Assembly: GCF_001469875.2 (NCBI RefSeq)
Contig: NZ_LOPW02000018.1
Coordinates: forward strand, 325,875 to 359,169
Length of the DNA: 33,295 bases
Source: Haloferax marisrubri
Lineage (GTDB): Archaea; Halobacteriota; Halobacteria; Halobacteriales; Haloferacaceae
Reading direction: 5' to 3'
In this document: piece after piece, positions 1,427 through 6,860 of the stretch
How the letters are laid out: the number at the start of each line of letters is the position of its first letter
Numbering within the stretch: the first letter of the stretch is position 1
Translations under genes and position numbers: made by a program
Notes under the pieces: generated by a model
What the model was told of the DNA's origin: nothing
The model's input: the letters and a program-made list of their open reading frames with translations, nothing else
The model's database searches: none

Positions 1427-2275
1427 TCAGTCGTCGAGGGTCGATTTCCGGGCTTCGATAGTGGCCGACACGAGGTACTCGCCGAGGTCGCGGTCGGCCT
1501 CCCAGTCGCTGATGAACTCAGTACTCTCGTCCTTGGGTGCGATCTCGACTGCCTCGAAGCCAGCGCGGTCAAGCATCTTCTCGAGCTTTCCGATGGTCGA
1601 GGCCCCGGCGACGCACCCCGTAAGCGAACCGGGGTCCATTGCAACGTCGTCGGGGAACGGCGCGGTCTGGACAACGTCGGAGATGGCGACGTGGCCGCCG
1701 GGCTTGAGGACGCGATACGCGTCGTCGAAGACACGTTGTTTCTCGGGTTCGAGGTTGACGACGCAGTTCGAAATGACGACGTCGACGGTCTCGTCGGCGA
1801 CCGGGAGGTGAGTAATCTCACCGAGACGGAACTCGACGTTCCGGGAGTCGTTCTTTGCGACGTTCTCGCGGGCCTTCGAGATCATCTCCAGAGTCATGTC
1901 GACACCGATGACGTGGCCGTCCGCGCCGACCTCCTGAGCGGCGAGGAAGCAGTCGAACCCCGCGCCGGAGCCGAGGTCGAGGACGGTTTCGCCGGGTGTC
2001 ATCGCGGCGAACGCCTTCGGGTTCCCACAACCGAGGCCGAGGTCCGCACCATCGGCGACCGACGCGATGTCATCGGCGTCGTACCCGAGGCGTTCGCTCT
2101 CGGACTGACTGTCGTCGTCACAGCAACCACTATCGCCCGCGACATCGAGCCCGACGTCGCTACAACAGCCCTGGTCGCTCGATGCGATTCCGGCGTAGCG
2201 TTCCCGTACCAACTGGCGAGTCGCCTCTGGATCGCGGTCGTCGGCTGTCGTGCCAGTCTGGGTGTCGTCACTCAT
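1427..2275 (-). CDS. arsM: Arsenite S-adenosylmethionine methyltransferase ArsM
   Basis: A 282-residue class I SAM methyltransferase. It transfers methyl groups from SAM to trivalent arsenic in the cytoplasm, giving methylated arsenicals. The Rossmann motif VLDLGSGAGFDC and the acidic loop VIGVDMTLEMI bind SAM. Conserved cysteines expected to hold As(III) appear in SNCVVNL and LTGCVAGA. The N-terminus carries two further Cys pairs (QGCCSD near residue 37 and SGCCDD near 50), typical of ArsM. The start at 2275 is chosen because the SAM domain is complete from there and the ATG overlaps the end of arsR2 by 8 bases, implying translational coupling. The frame stays open far upstream, but that part is a shadow of arsR2. 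The arsR2-arsM pair matches the arrangement known from Halobacterium plasmid pNRC100. Confidence 0.95.
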   Translation of the reverse strand: MSDDTQTGTTADDRDPEATRQLVRERYAGIASSDQGCCSDVGLDVAGDSGCCDDDSQSESERLGYDADDIASVADGADLGLGCGNPKAFAAMTPGETVLDLGSGAGFDCFLAAQEVGADGHVIGVDMTLEMISKARENVAKNDSRNVEFRLGEITHLPVADETVDVVISNCVVNLEPEKQRVFDDAYRVLKPGGHVAISDVVQTAPFPDDVAMDPGSLTGCVAGASTIGKLEKMLDRAGFEAVEIAPKDESTEFISDWEADRDLGEYLVSATIEARKSTLDD

Positions 2276-2627
2276 GGGTGCCTCGCAGGTCGTCGAGCGT
2301 TTCGAGCAGCGCCACGGTGGTCTCGGTCGGCTCGTAGTACCGCCAGGAGCCTTCTTTTCGGCGCGTGACCAGACCGGCAGCGTACAGCCGGGAGAGCGCC
2401 TGGCTGACAGCGCTCTGGCTGACGCCAACCGCCGCTTCGAGGTCGCAGACGCAGACGCCGTCGTCGGCGTTCGCGATGCGTCGGAGGAGCTCGTAGCGCG
2501 TGTCATTCCCCATGGCGGAGAGAACTTGGAGGTCAATCGCCATCGCGTCCGCATCGACGTCCCCAAGTGGAGTACAGCAGGCATCGGCGTCGCCTGTGGC
2601 CCCGTCGGCGACAGTATCCTGAACCAT
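2268..2627 (-). CDS. arsR2: ArsR-family metalloregulator (ArsR2)
   Basis: A 119-residue winged-helix repressor. The core has the metal-sensing pair C59-V-C61 inside the recognition region (GVCVCDLEAAV), as in As(III)-responsive ArsR proteins, followed by a DNA-recognition helix (SQSAVSQALSRL) and the wing (VTRRKEGSWRYY). An N-terminal C17-C18 pair could supply extra ligands. Binding of As(III) or Sb(III) is expected to release it from DNA. It is the first gene of a two-gene operon with arsM. An inverted repeat covers its own start codon and upstream region, consistent with autorepression. Confidence 0.93.
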   Translation of the reverse strand: MVQDTVADGATGDADACCTPLGDVDADAMAIDLQVLSAMGNDTRYELLRRIANADDGVCVCDLEAAVGVSQSAVSQALSRLYAAGLVTRRKEGSWRYYEPTETTVALLETLDDLRGTHE

Positions 2628-2811: not shown

Positions 2812-3000
2812 CTAACAGCAGTCGTTGCCGGCGTCGCAGGCGTCGCCGTAGTCGACGCCGGTCGCCACAGTGATTGTTTCCGTGCAGTCGTCGAGGAGGG
2901 CTTCGAAGTCCTCTCGACTGCATTCTGTTTTCGCGTCGGCGAGCGCCGCACCGAGGGATTCCGCCGCGGTCAGCACGTCGTCAGCGTCGCTCAACAGCAC
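2812..3000 (-). CDS. hcsS: Small acidic protein ending in Cys-Cys (halo-CC-star protein, short form)
   Basis: A 62-residue acidic protein with cysteines at TECSRED, DDCTET, DACDAG and the extreme C-terminus NDCC. The start is a GTG at 3000, inside the last codons of hcsL, with a 10-base overlap; no ATG fits. The overlap and shared strand make it the last gene of the arsD-arsA-hcsL operon. I recall such C-terminal CC proteins in haloarchaeal annotation as HcsS and HcsL. The function is unknown; a paired C-terminal thiol in an arsenic operon suggests binding or handing over trivalent arsenic or another soft metal, which is inference. Confidence 0.7.
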   Translation of the reverse strand: MLLSDADDVLTAAESLGAALADAKTECSREDFEALLDDCTETITVATGVDYGDACDAGNDCC

Positions 3001-3359
3001 CCACCCCCAATCGACTGCGCGAACGCCTGCCCGGTGCGTTCGCTTACGATCTCGTCCGTCTCGGCGAGTAAGCTCTCGAACGCCTCGCGAGCCTCGCGGT
3101 GTTGCCTGACAGACTCGAGTTCCGAGAGGTCCTTCTGGATGCTCCGGAGTTCGCTCATGAGCGACGTGTCGAACTCGCCGTTTTGGAGTTCGCGCTCGGT
3201 CTCCCGGTACGCATCCAATAGTTCCTGAGCCTCGGCGTCAGCTTCGAGTGCCTCCCGTGCTTCGACCAACTCCTGATAACGTTCACACGTGAGGAGTTCG
3301 TCGACGAACGCTTCGAGTTCCGTCTCGACGTCCGCGGTCTCGACCAGGGGGTCGCTCAC
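2991..3359 (-). CDS. hcsL: YlbF/YmcA-like helical protein ending in Cys-Cys (halo-CC-star protein, long form)
   Basis: A 122-residue, almost entirely helical and acidic protein that resembles the Com_YlbF family (ELVEAREALEADAEAQELLD). It ends in GGGCC followed directly by the stop, and one more cysteine lies in LLTCERYQ. The ATG overlaps the end of arsA by 4 bases, so the two are translationally coupled. YlbF-family proteins act as adaptor subunits of larger complexes, and in Bacillus the complex carries Fe-S clusters. Here the terminal Cys pair suggests a metal or arsenite carrier working with ArsA and ArsD. The family call is moderate and the function is inferred from context. Confidence 0.75.
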   Translation of the reverse strand: MSDPLVETADVETELEAFVDELLTCERYQELVEAREALEADAEAQELLDAYRETERELQNGEFDTSLMSELRSIQKDLSELESVRQHREAREAFESLLAETDEIVSERTGQAFAQSIGGGCC

Positions 3360-5290
3360 GACACCGTCACCTCCTCGCGGTCGTCCTCGAGCAGACGAGC
3401 CAATCCCGTGACCTCCGTGCCGAACTCGCGGAGGTCGTCGAGGCCGACGGGTTCCTCCTGACGCAACGGTGCGAGCATCATCGGTACGTCGAACCGCTCT
3501 TTAATCTCCGTAAGGTACTCCCCTTGCTGTGCGCGTCGGTTCTCGAAGAACGCGTTGTTGCCGTCGTCTTTCGGGAGCAGGTAGTTCGCCACCACGAGCG
3601 ACGTCTCGATCCCGACCTGGTCCTTGAGGTCCATCGCGGCACGGTACGCCTCCATCATAGGGGTGAACTCGGGGTACATCACGAACGCGAAGGAACTCCG
3701 ACTGGAGTCCTGCATCGTATCGATGACCTCGTCGTACTTCCCACCGTTCGCGGGTGCAGCACCCTTCGTGAGCGACCCGAGATCCATGAATCCCTTCCAG
3801 TCCGACGGTAACTCCAGCAACCGCAACGTGTGCCCGGTCGGGGCCGTGTCGAACACGACAACGTCGTAGCCGTCCTCCTCGAAGTAGCTCACAAACTTCT
3901 CGAGGGCTGCCATCTCCTCAGCACACGGCGATTCCAGTTCCTCCTCGACGTTCGCGATGGCCGCCTCCACGTCGATCTGCGTGTCGTCTTTCTCGGCGTA
4001 CATCTCACGAACGTGATCGAGGACTTGCGTCCGGTACTCCTCGAGCGCGCGCTCCTGGTCGATGCGGGCCGCATCGAGGTTCGCCTGCCCGACGGACGTC
4101 GGTTCGTGGCTGACAGGTTGCTCGAAGATGTCCGCGAGGTGCGCGGCCGGATCCGTGGTCACGACGAGCGTCTCGTAGCCCGCTTCCGCGAGCGAGACTG
4201 CGGTCGTTGACGCGATCGTACTCTTCCCGACACCACCTTTGCCAGTAAAGAACAGGTACCGTGTGTCTTCGACGGGAGCGAGTTCCTCGGCGACCGCGTC
4301 CGAGGCGGTGAGTGAGTCGAAGTCGACAGCTTCGTGGTCACTCGCGCGTCGCGTCGCCGCATCAACATCGACGGTCGCCTCGTCGCCGTCGTAGAGGACG
4401 CCACCGACGTCAGAGAGCAGTTCGAGACCCGCGATTTCTCCGGGCTGGAGTGGGTACGTCGCGAGCGCCTGGCGCTCGAATGTCGACTCCACGCGGTCGA
4501 TGACGGCCTGTTCGTCCGCGCGCTTGCCCTCGAAGAACGGGTCGTCGCACACTGACTCCGGCAGGTAGCCGTTGACGACGAGGAGTTGAGATTCGATGCC
4601 GAGTTCAGCGAGGTCGCTCGTACTCCGCTCTATCTCGTCGATCGACGACGATTCAGGTTTCCCGACGAACGCGAACGACGTCTGAGACTCATCAGAGAGC
4701 GTGTCGATGGCCCGCTCGTAGTCCGCTTTCTTGTCGTCCATCGACGCCGCGGGTCCAATGCACGTCGAACCGCCCTTCTCGAGTTCCGCGTTCCAGTCGG
4801 ACGGCAGTTCCATCAACCGAATGGTGTGTCCGGTGGGTGCGGTATCGAAGACGACGACGTCGTACTCGGGGCTGTCCATGAAGTCGACGAAGTTGTCGAA
4901 CGCCGCAATCTCCTCGACGCACGGACTGTTGAGCTGCTCTTCGACAGTCTCGATCTCCTCGTCGTCGAGGAGTGCCCGCATCGGTTCGATGGTCTCCTGA
5001 CGGTACTCTTCGGCAGCGACGTCGGGGTCGATTTCGATGGCCGAGAGGTTCGGGACATCGTCGATGCCGGTGACCTCGTGGCCGATATCCTGATTGAAGA
5101 TGTCGGAGAGGTTCGGCGCAGGGTCGGTCGTCACGAGCAGTGTCTCGTAGTCGTTGTCGGCGAGCCACGTCGCGGTCGCGCAGCTGACAGTGCTCTTGCC
5201 GACGCCGCCTTTCCCGCTGAAGAAGACGAACTCGGTCTCTTCGCTCGTCGGCTCGACGACGGCACGTGCGGCAGTATCGCTTTGTCTCAT
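3356..5290 (-). CDS. arsA: Arsenite-stimulated ATPase ArsA (two-domain)
   Basis: A 644-residue pseudo-dimeric ATPase that drives arsenite or antimonite export with an ArsB-type membrane partner. Both halves carry the deviant P-loop GKGGVGKST (residues 26-34 and again near 350) and the signature DTAPTGHT. The three cysteines that bind the metalloid in E. coli ArsA have counterparts here: SPCVEE and STCIGPA in the first half and SPCAEE in the second. The length is normal for a full ArsA. The start at 5290 lies 3 bases after the arsD stop, and the 3' end overlaps hcsL. No arsB or acr3 gene is in the window, so the pump must be elsewhere or the ATPase works with another partner. Confidence 0.96.
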   Translation of the reverse strand: MRQSDTAARAVVEPTSEETEFVFFSGKGGVGKSTVSCATATWLADNDYETLLVTTDPAPNLSDIFNQDIGHEVTGIDDVPNLSAIEIDPDVAAEEYRQETIEPMRALLDDEEIETVEEQLNSPCVEEIAAFDNFVDFMDSPEYDVVVFDTAPTGHTIRLMELPSDWNAELEKGGSTCIGPAASMDDKKADYERAIDTLSDESQTSFAFVGKPESSSIDEIERSTSDLAELGIESQLLVVNGYLPESVCDDPFFEGKRADEQAVIDRVESTFERQALATYPLQPGEIAGLELLSDVGGVLYDGDEATVDVDAATRRASDHEAVDFDSLTASDAVAEELAPVEDTRYLFFTGKGGVGKSTIASTTAVSLAEAGYETLVVTTDPAAHLADIFEQPVSHEPTSVGQANLDAARIDQERALEEYRTQVLDHVREMYAEKDDTQIDVEAAIANVEEELESPCAEEMAALEKFVSYFEEDGYDVVVFDTAPTGHTLRLLELPSDWKGFMDLGSLTKGAAPANGGKYDEVIDTMQDSSRSSFAFVMYPEFTPMMEAYRAAMDLKDQVGIETSLVVANYLLPKDDGNNAFFENRRAQQGEYLTEIKERFDVPMMLAPLRQEEPVGLDDLREFGTEVTGLARLLEDDREEVTVS

Positions 5291-5293
5291 CAG

Positions 5294-5623
5294 TCAGGCC
5301 TCCGGCGCGGACTCACGGTCGGTGACCGCGGCTTTGAGGGCGTTGTAGGAGAGGTACTCAGACTTGGCGACGATTTCATCGTCGACAATCGTGATCGGGA
5401 GAATTGACGGGCCGTGTTCTTCGACGAGGTCGTAGATACGCTGCGTCTCGAGGAACTGGTCGATGTCGTGTTGCATATTCGCTCGGGAGACATCGAGGTC
5501 GTCAATCTCGGTCTCGAGCTGGTCGAGGGCCGCGCTGACTTCGACGAGCTCGTCGTCGGGGTCCGGGCCACAGACGCCCGTTGAGCAACACATCGCTTCT
5601 TCGTACAGTGTGAGTTCAGTCAT
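5294..5623 (-). CDS. arsD: Arsenic metallochaperone ArsD
   Basis: A 109-residue thioredoxin-fold metallochaperone that passes As(III) or Sb(III) to ArsA in the cytoplasm. Cysteines 12, 13 and 18 (MCCSTGVCGP) match the three functional cysteines of plasmid R773 ArsD. The ending (SILPITIVDDEIV, then YLSYNALKAA) is also typical. The frame continues upstream to 5788, but the family start is the ATG at 5623, right before TELTLYEEAMCC. It is the first gene of the minus-strand operon arsD-arsA-hcsL-hcsS and diverges from arsR. Confidence 0.95.
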   Translation of the reverse strand: MTELTLYEEAMCCSTGVCGPDPDDELVEVSAALDQLETEIDDLDVSRANMQHDIDQFLETQRIYDLVEEHGPSILPITIVDDEIVAKSEYLSYNALKAAVTDRESAPEA

Positions 5624-5937: not shown

Positions 5938-6330
5938 ATGTCTTCCACCGATCGGCTCCAGCGATACCTCGCCGACGAACGCGGCGGATGTGGCGACGAA
6001 GCGGTCAACGAACGCCTCGCGGAACTCGAGGAACTGCACGTCGCCGCAGGTGGCCCGGAGCTCGACGACGATCTCAACCTGCTCGGAGCGCTCGCAAACG
6101 AAACCCGATACAAAATCGTCCGCATCCTCCACGTCGCCGATGACGAACTCTGTGTCTGCGAGTTCAGCCCGCTCCTCGACGTCAGCGACAGCGCCATCAG
6201 CCACGCACTCTCTAAGCTCACCGACGCCGGGCTCGTCACTCGACGGAAAGACGGCAAGTGGCGGAAATATCGTCCAACTCCTCGTGCCACTGCGGCACTC
6301 GTCGCACTCGACGGTTCCCGACAACTATGA
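5938..6330 (+). CDS. arsR: ArsR-family metalloregulator (ArsR1)
   Basis: A 130-residue winged-helix repressor with the thiol sensor C72-V-C74 (ELCVCEFSPLL), a recognition helix (SDSAISHALSKL) and a wing (VTRRKDGKWRKY). A further Cys lies at residue 18. It probably represses the divergent arsDA operon and its own arsR-arsC unit until arsenite binds. The frame is open back to 5632, but the upstream part is AT-rich promoter DNA, so the ATG at 5938 is chosen. It is clearly paralogous to the regulator encoded with arsM, so the locus has two metalloregulators. Confidence 0.92.
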   Translation: MSSTDRLQRYLADERGGCGDEAVNERLAELEELHVAAGGPELDDDLNLLGALANETRYKIVRILHVADDELCVCEFSPLLDVSDSAISHALSKLTDAGLVTRRKDGKWRKYRPTPRATAALVALDGSRQL

Positions 6331-6410: not shown

Positions 6411-6860
6411 ATGGAAAGTCAGAGTGGTATGGAAGAACCCACGAAAAAGCTCGGGTTCGTGTGCGTACAGAACGCGGGGCGGAGTCAGATGTCCGCAGCG
6501 TTCGCCGAGCGCGAACGCGACGAACGAACTCTCGGCGATCACGTTGCGGTCGTTACCGGTGGTACGCATCCCGCCGACAGCGTCCACGACGAAATCGTCG
6601 CCGTCATGGATGAGGTCGGCATCGACGTGTCCAACCGGACGCCACGAGAGGTATCGACGGAAACCCTGGAGTCGTGCGACGTCGTTGCGACGATGGGGTG
6701 TTCGACGCTCGAACTCGACGCAGAACGAGTCGAGATTCGTGATTGGAACCTCGATGACCCCCACGGTCAAGACATCGAACGTGTCCGGGAGATTCGCGAT
6801 GAGATCGAGACGCGAGTCCAAGACTTGTTTGACGAGTTCGTCGGCGATACCGAGTACTGA
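6411..6860 (+). CDS. arsC: Arsenate reductase ArsC, low-molecular-weight phosphatase fold
   Basis: A 149-residue protein that reduces arsenate to arsenite by a cysteine relay. The phosphatase loop is CVQNAGRS with nucleophile C18 and R24. Further cysteines C89 and C97 (SCDVVATMGCS) can form the relay disulfide, as in thioredoxin-coupled enzymes. The general-acid segment DWNLDDPHG is also present. The start could be 6411 or the in-frame ATG at 6429; the longer form is given. It follows arsR by 80 bases on the same strand, matching the arsR-arsC order of Halobacterium plasmid clusters. A plain tyrosine phosphatase is unlikely because of the extra cysteines and the context. Confidence 0.9.
   Translation: MESQSGMEEPTKKLGFVCVQNAGRSQMSAAFAERERDERTLGDHVAVVTGGTHPADSVHDEIVAVMDEVGIDVSNRTPREVSTETLESCDVVATMGCSTLELDAERVEIRDWNLDDPHGQDIERVREIRDEIETRVQDLFDEFVGDTEY

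Follow-up and report, generated by a model that had tools for sequence, protein, structure and literature searches.

The ars locus of Haloferax marisrubri raises the question of what two small proteins, HcsL and HcsS, do beside the ATPase ArsA, and with it the question, now two decades old, of what ArsA drives in haloarchaea. Reviews covering Halobacterium salinarum NRC-1 report that deletion of arsADRC leads to As(III) and Sb(III) sensitivity, that loss of arsB makes no difference, and that these two results prompted the proposal of a novel pump (PMC1447603; PMC3600143). No genes other than hcsL and hcsS are constant companions of arsA, and the missing step is most naturally sought in these two. 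The original prediction, made on the 33,295-nucleotide stretch of DNA that was analysed here as a whole (the window), held that both proteins are coupled to arsA, that each carries a terminal cysteine pair on a scaffold of its own, and that these pairs point to a metalloid relay between ArsD, ArsA and a further acceptor.

On the reverse strand of the window, arsD (5294..5623), encoding the metallochaperone (NF033727, 111.5 bits), is followed by arsA (3356..5290), encoding a two-domain arsenical pump-driving ATPase of 644 aa (NF041417 ArsA_halo, 1144.7 bits), and then by hcsL (2991..3359) and hcsS (2812..3000), whose products have 122 and 62 aa. Further along the same strand lie arsR2 (2268..2627), encoding an ArsR/SmtB regulator (NF033788, 74.7 bits), and arsM (1427..2275), encoding an arsenite methyltransferase (NF008823, 345.8 bits). 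Divergent from these, on the forward strand, are arsR1 (5938..6330), a second ArsR/SmtB regulator gene (NF033788, 76.1 bits), and arsC (6411..6860), encoding an arsenate reductase of the low-molecular-weight-phosphatase type (102.5 bits to PF01451; 79.7 bits to TIGR02689, which is under its cut-off). The arsA and hcsL genes overlap by 4 nt (3356-3359) and hcsL and hcsS by 10 nt (2991-3000). HcsS is translated from a GTG start and ends in AGNDCC, while HcsL ends in SIGGGCC, and the GGGCC and NDCC termini of the original prediction are thus confirmed. The cysteines of HcsS are found at positions 27, 39, 55, 61 and 62, with the codons of the terminal pair at 2815..2820; the codons of HcsL Cys121-Cys122 (2994..2999) occupy bases that also belong to the hcsS start (GTG CTG TTG). 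An identical gene order is found on pNRC100 of H. salinarum NRC-1, where hcsL and hcsS are already named in the NCBI annotation and where HcsL is 80% identical to that of the window.

The two genes are not new in themselves, as both belong to named NCBIfam families. HcsL reaches 142.9 bits against NF041416, over the cut-off of 140, as well as 52 bits against Pfam PF06133 Com_YlbF (cut-off 23.9), and HcsS reaches 82.5 bits against NF041415 (cut-off 55). With both NCBIfam cut-offs passed, the names HcsL and HcsS given in the original prediction are correct, as is the absence of a function, the families carrying a name only. In the collection of papers searched, none uses the term halo-CC-star and none was found for cory-CC-star. 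What is new here concerns the probable origin of HcsS from a single scaffold shared with HcsL, the ancestral nature of the tail, a range that extends outside haloarchaea and there includes operons with acr3, and the cysteine loss seen where ArsA is missing.

Among 292 Halobacteria, the respective cut-offs are passed by HcsS in 56 genomes, by HcsL in 51 and by ArsA_halo in 52. The predicted coupling to arsA is borne out in every neighbourhood analysed that holds an intact hcsL (58/58): the gene comes immediately after arsA and is itself followed at once by hcsS, with arsD upstream in 53 of these loci. No membrane protein was found to be a constant member of the operon, Acr3-like and ArsP-like permeases each being near only about ten of 63 loci; arsM is likewise close to only about ten of the 63. 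In one genome (L096:8875-10580) an insertion of roughly 1.1 kb interrupts hcsL and arsA and hcsS are intact, and in another (L127:8840-10744) an ArsA_halo of 928 bits has no hcsL or hcsS adjoining it or elsewhere in the genome.

As regards structure, HcsL has the RicA/RicF (YlbF) fold. Its profile matches RicA (2pih, E 1.4e-11) and RicF (6prk, E 1.1e-9) in the PDB, and its AF2 model (pLDDT 88) consists of five helices and a disordered C-terminal tail, superposing on 6prk and 2pih with TM 0.74-0.76 in Foldseek at weak E-values (2.8e-3 at best). HcsS has no Pfam match, and its AF2 model, a helical hairpin with a disordered tail (pLDDT 79.5), is without a fold match in the PDB. Profile-profile comparison by hhalign matches HcsS with the C-terminal portion of HcsL at 94% probability (E 1e-7) and with a housekeeping YlbF paralog at 92%. 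When the cysteine tails are removed it still aligns to HcsL at 82% (score 31.7) and to the housekeeping protein at 85% (score 32.7); a reversed control was run, and the maxima of 60 column shuffles were 16.2 and 20.3, respectively. These comparisons speak against two separate scaffolds, an element of the original prediction that is therefore not supported. On this sequence-profile evidence, HcsS is probably a YlbF paralog that has been shortened and is related to the C-terminal part of HcsL.

The cysteine endings themselves are well conserved. All 60 haloarchaeal HcsL C-termini end in Cys-Cys, as do 55 of 60 intact HcsS copies, the other five retaining one cysteine of the pair; within HcsS, Cys39 is kept in 58 of 60 and Cys55 in 59 of 60. 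Loss of the pair in close orthologs, which had been named as evidence that would speak against the prediction, is accordingly absent from HcsL and seen in part in HcsS. Only four of the 1263 remaining gene calls from these neighbourhoods have such an ending, with 0.11 expected from cysteine frequency, and the endings of HcsL and HcsS exceed chance. The hcsS start (RTG-CTG-TTG-A) coincides with the HcsL codons TGC-TGT-TGA in 52 of 59 loci, and, this stretch being read in two frames, the HcsL pair and the HcsS ending should be counted as independent only with caution. An origin of the HcsL pair as a by-product of the overlapping hcsS start is unlikely, given that two loci (L110 and L114) use different codons and that a paralog without any overlap has the same GGCC, which makes the pair a feature of the protein. 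Three degenerate HcsS remnants without an adjoining ArsA end in CW (L119), in SR (L124) and, in one case, still in CC (L125).

This paralog, a housekeeping YlbF encoded on the chromosome, is present in about three quarters of Halobacteria. In 21 of 21 genomes sampled, its C-terminus carries GGCC and then another two or three residues (GGCC-x-D/E), with no ars genes around and no gene overlap at the GGCC end. The pair is thereby ruled out as an arsenic-specific signature, and the idea that Cys-Cys in itself signals arsenic falls with it: the tail predates the arsenic role and is ancestral to the YlbF scaffold. Since the pair is ancestral and occurs in an unlinked housekeeping paralog, the tails of HcsL and HcsS need not bind arsenic. 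By analogy, the tail is best seen as a putative ancestral soft-metal-binding feature which would have been recruited to ArsA, not invented for arsenic. A gene for a MinD-like deviant Walker A ATPase follows the housekeeping gene in 10 of the 21 loci (L131:6143-7282 and nine among L154-L173), so that it is no obligatory neighbour; ArsA, which HcsL adjoins, belongs to this broad class of ATPases as well.

When the search was extended to the rest of the phylum, HcsS also turned up in genomes that do not belong to the class Halobacteria, in Methanoregulaceae and kin. Two of these genomes (G477 and G356) contain a single same-strand run arsR-arsD-ahpD-arsA-hcsL-hcsS-acr3, with the Acr3 of G356 reaching 452.6 bits to the ACR3 model, and a Methanoregulaceae MAG (L183) contains arsR-arsD-arsA-hcsL-hcsS. 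The three ArsA proteins group in a single supported clade of the ArsA tree, which leaves both a single and a multiple gain of the pair possible. The HcsL proteins of these genomes fall under the NCBI cut-off (103 against 140 bits) and end in GGCC in three of three, and their HcsS proteins end in CDCGGKC or CGCGGTC, not in CC. Two sister genomes (G547 and G600) have tandem hcsL-hcsS pairs and no ArsA (best match 27 bits); there, all four HcsL copies end in GGCY or GGCR, and HcsS is without Cys39 and without any CC end. This comparison ties the retention of the cysteines to ArsA through, at most, one independent evolutionary event, the two being sister species. The tandem hcsL-hcsS-hcsL-hcsS array without ArsA at L176:9229-10513 lies near a KefB-like antiporter gene and a flavodoxin/ferredoxin gene. 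HcsL and HcsS were not found with close relatives of ArsA from Methanoperedens and Syntrophales; hence there is no general requirement of ArsA for them, and the pair is accessory to some ArsA systems only. In a deltaproteobacterial MAG (L195:8047-9034), arsA and a short ArsD-like ORF are followed by a zinc-ribbon ORF ending in CC, a YlbF ending in GGCC, a second YlbF-like ORF ending in GGC and then CoaBC, an arrangement which may be ars-linked or merely adjacent.

Aligned to the solved ArsA 9nbl, the window's ArsA has Cys124, Cys177 and Cys456 at the As(III) ligand positions, and these three we take to be its As(III) site, by their role in R773 ArsA. The window's ArsD has only Cys12, Cys13 and Cys18, the chaperone site. 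A search of the window's genome gave no match for Acr3 or ArsB, and one ArsP-family permease is encoded on another contig. Across the 53 genomes with ArsA and HcsLS, Acr3 is full-length in 16, split or partial in two and absent in 35, and in 12 of the 53 Acr3, ArsB and ArsP are all absent. This scarcity of Acr3 and ArsB agrees with the NRC-1 genetics.

Taken together, these data lead us to favour, tentatively and with somewhat less than even confidence, a reading in which HcsL and HcsS form a soluble RicA/RicF-like adaptor of ArsA and, with their cysteine tails pooled, pass As(III) or Sb(III) on to a pump. It is favoured because of the 58/58 coupling, the RicA/RicF fold of HcsL, the conservation of the cysteines and their loss in relatives without ArsA, the operons that end in acr3, the three-cysteine site of ArsA and the NRC-1 genetics. 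By analogy with RicA and RicF, the two proteins would pair into a soluble heteromer that docks on the two-domain ArsA ATPase as its adaptor. The flexible tails, with Cys121-122 of HcsL and Cys39, 55 and 61-62 of HcsS, may then form one composite thiolate site that would accept As(III) or Sb(III) released from ArsD-ArsA. Placed between ArsA and the exporter, the heteromer would hand the metalloid on, the recipient being Acr3 where present and another, putative exporter in the many haloarchaea without Acr3 or ArsB, that of the window included. Outside haloarchaea, the hcsLS-acr3 operons offer a tractable version of the problem, the pump there being known. The original prediction is supported in the tight arsD-arsA link, the Cys-Cys endings and the family names, and by the loss of the HcsL pair in relatives without ArsA; the relay between ArsD, ArsA and an acceptor is a plausible proposal, and the two scaffolds and the pair as a sign of arsenic are the parts that found no support. 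Several observations count against such an adaptor: one cysteine of the HcsS pair is lost in 5 of 60 copies, the non-haloarchaeal HcsS lacks CC, the pair is ancestral, the cysteine loss in the sister genomes amounts to one event at most, some ArsA relatives do without the two proteins, and the AF2 tails are disordered. It is more doubtful whether the pair represents a class of its own among adaptors for metalloid transfer, in which a heteromer of the RicA/RicF type would join its two cysteine tails into a single As(III)/Sb(III) site on ArsA and serve different exporters, a putative haloarchaeal pump among them.

HcsL and HcsS could instead be a structural or allosteric adaptor, comparable to Get4/5 for the related Get3, which docks ArsA on a membrane partner or gates its ATPase, the cysteines holding the tails through a disulfide or zinc and no arsenic being carried. 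The kinship of ArsA with Get3 fits such a role, as does the fact that the invariant coupling is to arsA and to no single pump (full-length Acr3 in only 16 of 53 arsA-hcsLS genomes), and the HcsS pair can lose one cysteine. Support has also been drawn from the CC-ended YbdD/CstX proteins, which accompany ArsA homologues in CstA operons of some genomes (PMC2963123), although these share no sequence with HcsL and HcsS. The HcsL pair, however, is invariant, and several separate cysteines of HcsS persist only where ArsA is present, a pattern pointing beyond a mere structural disulfide. We consider a purely structural role rather unlikely.

As(III) attacks Fe-S clusters, and HcsL and HcsS might be shared carriers of a [4Fe-4S] cluster, as RicA, RicF and RicT are, serving as a sensor of redox state or metalloid damage or as a regulator of the operon or its mRNA. 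The tails of the two proteins jointly supply at least four thiols, and the fold is that of RicA and RicF, whose C-terminal cysteines (C134 and C146 of Bacillus RicF, C141 of RicA), with C167 of RicT, ligate such a cluster at the subunit interface; neighbouring cysteines, on the other hand, seldom ligate one and the same cluster (PMC6751060). The third subunit, RicT (PSP1), was found in none of 59 Halobacteria, with a positive control in B. subtilis, and since it is absent from all of them the Bacillus RicAFT complex as such is not the model and equivalence with it is ruled out. With two ArsR regulators already in the operon and cysteine loss going together with loss of ArsA, an Fe-S role appears improbable. 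Most improbable is that the pair buffers free cytosolic As(III)/Sb(III) or supplies ArsM in place of a pump, for although arsM comes after hcsS in the window and on pNRC100 and Acr3/ArsB are missing from many of these genomes, arsM is close to few loci, the next gene in two non-haloarchaeal genomes is acr3, not arsM, and a buffer would not need the invariant coupling to ArsA.

Other small proteins tipped with cysteines have been found in the vicinity of these genes or in comparable settings. A 101-aa protein of the SelT/SelW/Rdx family, a redoxin scaffold ending in CSPGCC, is encoded directly downstream of hcsS in L072 (9856-10161) and L093 (10091-10396) and one gene further in L065 (11273-11578). 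In one genome (L121:9065-9520), a MoaD/ThiS-like protein encoded directly after hcsS ends in YPFIYCC where GG is usual. E. coli YbdD (L153:4183-4380), which partners CstA, a pyruvate transporter, has the C-terminus GARCC. Were HcsL and HcsS indeed a separate class of metalloid-transfer adaptor, they and the CC-ended YbdD/CstX proteins would suggest that ATPases of the ArsA/Get3 class repeatedly have small proteins with cysteine tips as partners.

Compared with known systems, the YbdD/YjiX proteins (CstX, PF04328; relatives of the KCU-star selenoproteins) resemble HcsL and HcsS in being small, soluble and CC-ended (Cys-Sec in relatives) and in often occurring with an ArsA homologue; they differ in sequence and in serving pyruvate and carbon-starvation transport, not arsenic, and as PF04328 is absent from 78 of 78 Halobacteria they are ruled out as the haloarchaeal counterpart. 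With B. subtilis RicA (YmcA) and RicF (YlbF), HcsL shares the five-helix fold, and the pair shares a probable organisation as paralogs and cysteines near the C-termini, whereas it lies in ars operons and has one partner that is predicted to be cut down to a helical hairpin. The window matches the NCBIfam halo-CC-star families NF041415 (HcsS) and NF041416 (HcsL) in cut-offs, in the order arsA-hcsL-hcsS and in the CC ends, and to these entries the present analysis adds HcsS as a probable shortened relative of HcsL and a range beyond haloarchaea. The arsADRC/arsR2M cluster of Halobacterium NRC-1 has the order of the window, and its published gene list, arsMR2ADR1C, omits the hcsL and hcsS genes lying inside it. 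With the ArsD-ArsA-ArsB system of E. coli R773, the window has in common Cys12, 13 and 18 of ArsD and a two-domain ArsA with three arsenic-site cysteines; it differs in an ArsD without the C-terminal pairs Cys112-113 and Cys119-120 that R773 ArsD possesses (PMC4562236), in a genome without ArsB, and in the addition of HcsL and HcsS.
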